Source: Candidatus Avirikenella pullistercoris
Lineage (GTDB): Bacteria; Bacteroidota; Bacteroidia; Bacteroidales; Rikenellaceae
NCBI GenBank assembly: GCA_018710935.1
Contig: DVIX01000010.1
Coordinates: 1 to 64,000 of the forward strand
Direction: 5' to 3'
DNA: 64,000 bases
Below, piece by piece: positions 18,445 through 59,597 of this stretch; the first letter of the stretch is position 1, and each line of letters opens with the position of its first letter. A program made the translations under genes and the position numbers. Below the pieces are notes generated by a model. It saw only the letters and a list, made by a program, of their open reading frames with translations, did not search any database and had not been told where the DNA came from.

Positions 18445-18607
18445 ATTTTTTGTTTTAACGATTTACATAAATTCGTTTTTTGTCAAACGTAGATTCCTGT
18501 TTTTAGAAAATAGGAATGGTGAGCTTAACGTTAAACGGTTCTGAGAATATAATATTTCTGACGAGGAGATAGGTACCGGGTATATAAACAGTGAATGCAA
18601 AAAGGTT

Positions 18608-18684
18608 ACGCACTCCCTACGCCGGTATTATCCGTGTCAGGTAAAAGGGTATAATCTCAGCCGTTTCCGGCACCCCTGTCGTTT
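18608..18684 (-). promoter_or_regulatory. TPP riboswitch (THI element)
   Basis: On the minus strand the element contains, in order, GGGGTGCC, GGCTGAGA, an ACCC..ACCTGA segment, GGATAAT and the GCGTAGGGA end, which together are the conserved core of the thiamine-pyrophosphate aptamer. It lies upstream of thiS and is expected to shut the operon off when TPP is plentiful, by blocking translation or by termination. No strong terminator hairpin is evident between it and thiS. Confidence 0.95.
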
Positions 18685-18735
18685 TCGGAAGGTTTTTTGA
18701 TAACTGCCCCTTCGCGGCATTCGTACCATATTGTA

Positions 18736-33190: not shown

Positions 33191-33383
33191 GTTTTTAATT
33201 ATCTCCGGCTGTTGGTTTGGTGTGTAAATAGTAGAATGGGAAAGGAAAATTTTGGGTTATAATAAATTTATTTTTATTAAGTAAGTCATTACAATTTTTT
33301 GTAATTTTACCATTGCTTCACTCACGTCGTCGTTTCCCTTTTAAGGTAAAGCGGCAAGTAGGGGAGCGCTACATTTTTGAAAT

Positions 33384-33683
33384 GCGTTTACCAACGCTTT
33401 GTTTTTGGTCGTTAGAACCTAGGAAATTCAAACGTAGAATCAAAGACAATGCAGGAGTAGATGCTACGGGTAGGTATATACTGTTCCCGTGGGTGTGCAG
33501 GGGGCCTATTATGCCCTCGCGCACACTTTCGAGCGTACATTATACCAACGGCGTGGGTGTCTTATTCTGTCCTGTCCATTCTACGGGTTTTCCTAGGACC
33601 TTAACGACGGACAAGCAGAGATCAGATGCCCCGCTTTCTTTATGTAGTTATCTTTAGAATAAATCATCTGCGATTGGGCATCT
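33384..33683 (+). ncRNA. Candidate structured RNA or long leader upstream of the AT-rich acyltransferase
   Basis: The 670-base gap after the OmpP1/FadL gene holds no recognisable protein but dense inverted repeats. A long-range stem joins GTCGTTA+CCTAGGAAA (33408-33414, 33418-33426) with TTTCCTAGG+TAACGAC (33589-33597, 33602-33608). Inside lie hairpins ACGGG/CCCGT (33466-33470, 33486-33490) and GTGTGC-AGGG / CCCT-GCACAC (33493-33502, 33514-33526). Outside are GCGTT/AACGC (33384-33397) and AGATGCCC/GGGCATCT (33624-33631, 33676-33683), the last ending 21 bases before the next start codon. An open frame of 114 codons (33313-33657) crosses it but resembles no known protein; that it codes cannot be excluded. 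Strand is taken from the downstream gene. No known RNA family is recognised. Confidence 0.5.
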
Positions 33684-33704
33684 AGTGGATATAATAATAA
33701 TTTA

Positions 33705-34385
33705 ATGAATATAAATAAAATTATTAAAGTTTTTAAAAAAGTAAATCTTTTAAAAACTTTGTATTTCAATTTCCACTATTTTCCTTTTAAAATAGCAGTT
33801 CGGTTACCTGTATTTATTTTTTGGAGGTCTGAACTTTATAAAATGAAAGGGACGATTTTAATAAATGCTCCTATTTCAACAGGAATGTTAAAGTTTGGTT
33901 GTCATGGATTAGGGACGCAAGATTTATTATATTCACGAACAATGTGGGAAGTTTATGGAACTCTTATACTCGAGGGAAAAGCAAATATAGGTCGTGGTTC
34001 TAAAATTAGTATAGGTGAGGATGCAACATTAATTTTGGGCAAAAATTTTTCTATTACTGGAAATTCAACTATTATCAGTCAAAAAAAAATAACGTTTGGT
34101 AGCGATTGTTTATTATCATGGGATATCTTAATCATGGACACAGATTTTCATCATATAATGGATAAAGATTACAATAAAATTAATAATCCTGAAGCTATCA
34201 AGATTGGAAAGCATGTATGGATAGGTTGCCGAAATACTATATTAAAAGGGGTTAGTATCGCTGATAATACCGTGATTTCTGCAAATTCTATTATTACTAG
34301 AAGTTTTTTTGAAGAAAATTGTGTAATAGGTGGACATGGTAAAAATGTTAATGTTATTAAGAAAGATATTATATGGAGTATTTGA
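33705..34385 (+). CDS. Left-handed beta-helix acyltransferase (hexapeptide repeat), AT-rich
   Basis: 226 residues. The C-terminal ~130 residues are a left-handed beta helix built from hexapeptide turns (IGRGSKISIGEDATLILGK..., later IKIGKHVWIGCRNTILKGV), with the catalytic-type histidine in DTDFHH. Such enzymes O-acetylate sugars of capsule, LPS or exopolysaccharide (WcaF/maltose acetyltransferase relatives). The ~60-residue N-terminus is hydrophobic and basic. Codon use is strongly A/T at third positions, unlike all neighbours, suggesting acquisition by transfer. It stands alone; no other glycan genes are adjacent. Confidence 0.85.
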   Translation: MNINKIIKVFKKVNLLKTLYFNFHYFPFKIAVRLPVFIFWRSELYKMKGTILINAPISTGMLKFGCHGLGTQDLLYSRTMWEVYGTLILEGKANIGRGSKISIGEDATLILGKNFSITGNSTIISQKKITFGSDCLLSWDILIMDTDFHHIMDKDYNKINNPEAIKIGKHVWIGCRNTILKGVSIADNTVISANSIITRSFFEENCVIGGHGKNVNVIKKDIIWSI

Positions 34386-59039: not shown

Positions 59040-59597
59040 ATGGAAGAAGTTCAGGAAAAGCAATGGTATGTGTTACGGGCCATCGGCGGGAAAGAGAAGA
59101 AGGTGAAGGAGTATATCGAAGCGGAAATCCGCAACGGCAAGCTCCACGACTATATTTCTCAAGTACTGATTCCTACTGAGAAAGTTTACCAGATACGCAA
59201 TGGTAAAAAAATCAGCAAAGAAAAAATTTCATATCCGGGTTATGTATTGGTAGAAGCGATTCTGGTGGGAGAAATTCCGCATATTCTTCGTAATGTACCT
59301 AATGTCTTAGGCTTCCTTAGCGACACAAAAGATACCACTTTAGGGGCTATTCCTCTCCGCCCGGCTGAAGTAAACCGTATCTTGGGTCGTGTAGACGAAA
59401 TGGTAGATAGCGAAGAGATTAACGAAACTCCTTTTCTTGTGGGGGAAACCATCAAAGTTATCGAAGGTCCTTTTGCATCGCTTAACGGCGTGATAGAGGA
59501 GGTCGATAATGAACGCAAGAAATTGGTGGTAAGCGTTAAGATATTCGGACGTAAGACTCCTATGGAGTTGAGCTTTATGCAAGTAGAAAAAGAATAA
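59040..59597 (+). CDS. nusG: Transcription antitermination factor NusG
   Basis: 185 residues. NGN domain (QWYVLRAIGGKEKKVKEYIE), then a KOW domain (VGETIKVIEGPFASLNGVIEEV). It links RNA polymerase and the ribosome. Gene order secE-nusG-rplK is universal in this group. Confidence 0.97.
   Translation: MEEVQEKQWYVLRAIGGKEKKVKEYIEAEIRNGKLHDYISQVLIPTEKVYQIRNGKKISKEKISYPGYVLVEAILVGEIPHILRNVPNVLGFLSDTKDTTLGAIPLRPAEVNRILGRVDEMVDSEEINETPFLVGETIKVIEGPFASLNGVIEEVDNERKKLVVSVKIFGRKTPMELSFMQVEKE

Follow-up and report, generated by a model that had tools for sequence, protein, structure and literature searches.

Members of the Bacteroidales evade phages and immunity by varying their capsules, surface proteins, and restriction systems, and such genes are so far known to be controlled mostly by invertible promoters and the UpxY and UpxZ proteins. 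JUMPstart/ops (RF01707) and epsC/EAR (RF01735) are leader RNAs of polysaccharide operons that are tied to transcription elongation or antitermination. Proteins of the UpxY family reportedly keep transcription from ending prematurely in the leaders that precede upxY (PMC7819879). We analyzed a 64,000-nucleotide stretch of DNA (the window) in which a 670-base gap precedes a hexapeptide-repeat acyltransferase gene (33705..34385, plus strand; PF00132, E value of 1.9e-7). Our sequence comparisons suggest that the gap encodes a transcribed 5′ leader of the acyltransferase gene that functions as a cis-acting transcription attenuator and represents a new RNA family, with a long-range helix (A) as the putative antiterminator and a hairpin (B) as the putative terminator. 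We place the probability of this reading at about two in three.

A preliminary description of the window had proposed a structured RNA of no known family in this gap on the basis of its inverted repeats, which we confirmed. Taken over the whole stretch, the plus strand was predicted to fold with a z score of -5.7, with none of 100 shuffles as good, and the minus strand more weakly (z of -2.8). Searches with Rfam 15 returned no family at or above the gathering score for the element in the window or in six homologous loci, with only tRNA and TPP matches elsewhere, and the element in the window also lacked a match at a relaxed threshold, in agreement with the earlier claim. The TPP riboswitch of the window (RF00059, 62.2 bits) is located at 18596-18687 on the minus strand.

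Homologues were collected by blastn in 393 genomes of Bacteroidales, which revealed copies in other families, and by matching a degenerate pattern to a collection of genomes at species level, which yielded at least 117 stretches. Among the pattern matches listed, nhmmer recognized about 70 full homologues, nearly all in Bacteroidales (Prevotella, Bacteroidaceae, Muribaculaceae, and Paludibacteraceae). Because the element is quasi-palindromic and nearly its own reverse complement, some homologues were first matched in antisense; after being turned to sense, all align end to end. The 114-codon frame in the gap is not conserved, as any open frame runs through the element in only 3 of 69 homologues, and element lengths differ by non-multiples of three, which ruled out a protein-coding gene. 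Covarying changes had been put forward as the test of a structured RNA, and we found many compensatory base changes across homologues. These findings support the structured-RNA interpretation, and the sequence comparisons indicate that the gap holds one copy of a conserved, so far uncatalogued RNA of ~310 nt, a fragment of which may be among the lists of a 2021 human-microbiome RNA survey (PMC8040213).

An unbiased covariation scan covering every column pair of 69 homologues gave the highest ranks to the pairs of helix A, formed by a left arm at 33408-33426 and a right arm at 33589-33608 (for example, 33414.33602 is TA in 31, GC in 22, AT in 15, and CG in 1). By our count, this long-range stem has 17 pairs rather than the 16 first described. 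Covariation signals also came from the inner extensions of helix A (33434-33440/33578-33584 and 33451-33456/33565-33570), hairpin D, hairpin B (33551-33577 with 33609-33634), and a pairing termed x′.y. Five helices recurred besides A: P1, hairpin D, hairpin B with its U-tract, x′.y, and w.x. A central variable domain (33466..33548), which contains a hairpin of GTGTGC (33493-33498) and GCACAC (33521-33526), is missing in a short form of the element. We also observed a closing stem (33369-33374/33642-33647) in the window, with little covariation support across loci.

At the 5′ side, the consensus fold contains the P0 hairpin GCGUU-UACC-AACGC (33384..33397), the arms of which (33384-33388/33393-33397) are the GCGTT/AACGC flank of the preliminary description. 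The consensus fold of the 5′ domain also contains P1 (33399..33449), in which UUGUUUUUG (33399-33407) pairs with CAAAGACAA (33441-33449) to enclose hairpin D (33410..33434). Hairpin D pairs 33410-33417 with 33427-33434 and was found both in the consensus fold and in the covariation scan, where pair 33415.33429 ranked 11. Its conserved loop, CCUAGGAAA (33418-33426), is complementary to UUUCCUAGG (33589-33597) in the right arm of helix A. P0 and the following T-rich UUUGUUUUUG (33384-33407) appeared terminator-like in a terminator scan and are nearly invariant in homologues; this segment could be an early pause or termination site.

Hairpin B (33551..33634) is terminator-like, with x (33551-33562) pairing with x′ (33624-33634) and an inner helix of 33573-33577 with 33609-33613, directly followed by the U-tract TTTCTTT (33635..33641). 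Across 119 loci, the T-rich tract after x′ has a mean of 7.5 T in 10 nt. Due to its long loop, hairpin B was not listed in a simple terminator scan. In an alignment not fitted to any structure, A and B together had 211 cells changed on both sides compared with 80 in shuffles and 46-109 in slid controls, a value reached by no shuffle and no slid control. The corresponding count for P0, P1, D, and B was 94, compared with 41.5 in shuffles and 19-39 in slid controls, and P1, D, and B likewise exceeded the controls on nearly all measures. P1 was paired in 91% of cells (in A1, column pair 27.77 is UA in 32 and CG in 18), and the inner helix of hairpin B was paired in 92%, with double changes in all 5 pairs.

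The preliminary description had also proposed mutually exclusive hairpins before the start codon, starting from a pairing of AGATGCCC (33624-33631), within x′, with GGGCATCT (33676..33683), which we term box y. This pairing is present (p<0.01 versus window shuffles) and covaries across loci, with pair 33628.33679 at rank 12 in the scan. The attenuator- or riboswitch-like layout was upheld by comparison, but the partners differ from those named. The conserved competitor for AGATGCCC is not CATCTG (33665-33670) but GGGTGTCT (33555-33562), which together with AGATGCCC forms the terminator-like hairpin ending in the U-tract. Measured against shuffles that preserved base composition only, as in our promoter and T-tract tests, complementarity of x′ and y reached p≤0.05 in 49% of 119 loci, with y clustered 40-55 nt downstream. 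In the same type of test, segment w (CTCACGTCG, 33321..33329) pairs with x in the window (z of 4.9, p of 0.01), as it does in the predicted fold of a transcript ending at 33560; p≤0.05 was reached in 34% of 118 loci, with w clustered 50-65 nt before the 5′ domain. Boxes y and w were not recognizable in about half or more of the loci.

Several of these helices cannot form together. Helix A cannot form alongside hairpin D, nor can it form completely alongside P1, and where A is present, x and the right arm are unavailable to hairpin B. In addition, x′ can pair with either y or x, and x with either x′ or the 5′ end w. Compensatory changes are found in helices on both sides of this competition, as in an attenuator. 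A folding model of the growing transcript predicted w.x and D up to 33560 and then A, and at the U-tract the predicted energy of A (-118.3 kcal/mol) was 6.5 kcal/mol lower than that of B with D (-111.8 kcal/mol). As modeled, competing helices with such close-lying alternative states are an attenuator layout. A and B have few bases in common, and the two may coexist in a pseudoknot.

The position of box y raises the alternative that the leader acts on mRNA translation or stability, with the U-tract as a mere linker and the x′.y pairing near the start codon setting ribosome access. Consistent with this idea, box y is found at a constant distance in the interval separating the hairpin from the start codon, and the lowest-energy predicted fold of the full leader combines A with x′ paired to the y region. 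However, the T-rich tract right after x′ is kept in almost all copies, as would be expected for a terminator, and the helices incompatible with hairpin B are conserved as well. We regard control at the level of translation or stability as unlikely relative to transcription attenuation.

The -7 box consensus of Bacteroidetes is TAnnTTTG, as quoted in PMC7366714, and we found this motif upstream in 100 of 119 loci compared with 9 expected and with 5 of 112 in a control region. It lies at a median of 75 nt ahead of the 5′ domain, with TTTG enriched 23-24 nt upstream of the box. The likely -7 box of the window, TACCATTG (33308..33315, plus strand), matches 5 of the 6 fixed bases (one mismatch) and lies ~70 nt upstream of the 5′ domain. 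In 109 of 113 loci, the first downstream gene and the element share a strand, with a median of 81 nt from the U-tract to the gene, whereas upstream genes are divided between the same strand (63) and the opposite strand (37). The spacer between the U-tract and the gene contains no promoter boxes beyond chance (2 of 95, with 4 expected). Judged from these boxes, a promoter lies upstream and a same-strand, promoterless gene lies downstream, as in an attenuator leader.

A promoter box and a terminator-like end are also found in intergenic small RNAs, and the element could be a free-standing, trans-acting small RNA gene, with the following gene incidental. Against this possibility, the downstream gene is on the same strand in nearly every locus and within a narrow distance range, the spacer lacks promoter boxes, and y pairs with the would-be small RNA yet lies outside it. 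The combination of an upstream promoter, a same-strand gene at a set distance, and a promoterless spacer thus argues for a 5′ leader, and we consider a free-standing small RNA quite unlikely. The idea that the spacer from the U-tract to y is a guide to another site in its own genome was rejected, as no other match was found at up to 3 mismatches.

The genes behind the putative leader are mostly accessory and encode UpxY antiterminators, acyltransferases, restriction enzymes, DNA methylases, and surface proteins. Among 102 first genes, we identified 6 UpxY-type antiterminators, 6 acyltransferases of family 3, and several proteins with DNA methylase or restriction domains. Single cases included TdeIII and BPTD_3080 restriction enzymes, HxsD, BspA-type leucine-rich repeat proteins, a phosphoethanolamine-transferase relative, and a helicase related to DISARM DrmD and phospholipase-D anti-phage proteins, the best matches of which were below the cut-off. 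Surface structures and phage defense are our reading of the common thread in this mixed gene list, rather than a statistical enrichment. The gene in the window resembles O-acetyltransferases of lipopolysaccharide or capsule, most closely those of lipopolysaccharide; its best NCBIfam match was WbbJ-type (E value of 5e-14), below the cut-off of that model. Behind it lies an EamA-type transporter gene (PF00892; 34700-35116, plus strand).

About 120 homologous loci were found in Bacteroidales of the gut and rumen, a set in which collection by pattern and blast favors close relatives and many genomes are metagenome assembled. A covariance model of the 5′ domain matched 17 of 149 genomes of Bacteroidales and none of 117 genomes sampled from the phylum outside the order. 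The short form without the central domain, detected by pattern only, occurs in some Bacteroidales and in Pedobacter-type (Sphingobacteriales) and Chitinophagales genomes. The genome of the window has a single copy, and up to 8 copies occur in others (7 in G018 and 8 in G079), dispersed before different genes. The same core precedes unrelated genes in different genomes: we found 95 pairs of cores with at least 80% identity, mostly with unrelated downstream genes, and the cores of two loci from different families (L034 and L038) are identical over their 261 nt, while their flanks and genes are unrelated. In these two loci (L034:8389-8470 and L038:8393-8470), spacers of ~25 nt between the identical cores and near-identical y hairpins (26 of 27 bases) are unrelated, which points to core exchange between resident elements or to a quickly replaced spacer. 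The core in the window is closest to Prevotella-type copies (88.6% identity to L078), which suggests that it was probably acquired. We also observed the RNA ahead of a TdeIII-type restriction endonuclease gene in four genomes (L122, L091, L163, and L048; one member tested), indicating that core and gene can travel together. Considering these sequence relationships, the element appears to travel as a module ahead of accessory surface and defense genes.

These exchanges of cores, along with the quasi-palindromic sequence, patchy occurrence, and multiple copies per genome, might instead indicate a MITE- or intron-like mobile element, non-autonomous and equipped with a promoter, that inserts ahead of genes and whose structure serves mobility rather than regulation. 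Passive insertion would not be expected to produce the strict orientation and gene distance, compensatory changes in mutually exclusive helices, or a gene-side box y matching x′, and the element encodes no protein. We find this explanation very unlikely. Retrons, group II introns, and IscB/TnpB guide RNAs were dismissed for lack of an RNA-model match, and neither reverse transcriptases nor transposon nucleases were among the top 25 families listed for first downstream genes. Phage and plasmid origins were likewise rejected, as the element in the window had no match in phages and one 33-bp match in plasmids that we judged to be chance; of ten pattern matches in viral contigs, none was confirmed by the RNA model.

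For the attenuator reading, we observed the helices, their covariation and overlaps, a promoter box, a U-tract, and a constant placement ahead of a gene, and from these we propose the following mechanism. Transcription would start near 33320; P0, P1, and hairpin D would form in the first part of the RNA, with x sequestered by w at the 5′ end. The emerging right arm (33589-33608) could then open D and P1 to form helix A, which would prevent x and the right arm from entering hairpin B and let polymerase pass. Without A, x would pair with x′, and hairpin B with the U-tract would stop transcription; in read-through RNA, box y would hold x′. Thus, B would terminate, A would represent the ‘on’ state, and a factor or ligand acting at the P0/P1/D domain would set the choice. 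The signal could be carried by a general elongation factor or by a ligand that binds the P0/P1/D domain, or it could lie in how folding is balanced against polymerase pausing. A conserved 5′ domain is present, but the mixed downstream genes give no hint of a ligand.

UpxY proteins are a candidate factor, and their reported antitermination role fits the UpxY-linked copies of the RNA. However, the genome of the window (G000) and three others (G018, G041, and G142) carry 1, 7, 5, and 2 copies of the RNA, respectively, and none of the four has a UpxY match exceeding the family cut-off, which rules out UpxY as the general factor or partner. The sole NusG-family match in the genome of the window (59064-59543, plus strand) falls short of the UpxY cut-off and presumably represents the housekeeping NusG. 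As a tentative possibility, the RNA may be a new switch class spread as a movable module that places the variable surface and phage-defense genes of one cell under a common signal, such as infection, envelope stress, or a nucleotide messenger, with no regulator encoded beside it. If the attenuator reading is true, a conserved RNA attenuator found up to 8 times per genome ahead of genes of this kind would add a new level of regulation and point to a common signal. The RNA is also a large new family in a phylum with few known, with natural variants at hand for RNA-switching tests.

Among described systems, the UpxY-controlled capsule leaders of Bacteroides fragilis share with this RNA an extended leader at the 5′ end, premature termination (proposed for this RNA) ahead of a polysaccharide gene, and occurrence in Bacteroidales, and UpxY genes lie directly behind the RNA in several Prevotella-type loci; in contrast, most genes behind the RNA are not capsule operons. 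RF01707 and RF01735 are likewise leader RNAs of polysaccharide operons linked to elongation or antitermination, but the RNA has no covariance-model match to either, is ~310 nt, contains a terminator-like hairpin of its own, and is also found ahead of restriction-modification and surface-protein genes. As in trp-type and riboswitch attenuators, overlapping putative antiterminator and terminator helices lie ahead of a gene. Unlike these attenuators, the RNA has neither a conserved frame through the element nor a known aptamer, and its alternative helices (w.x, D, A, B, and x′.y) outnumber those usually present.
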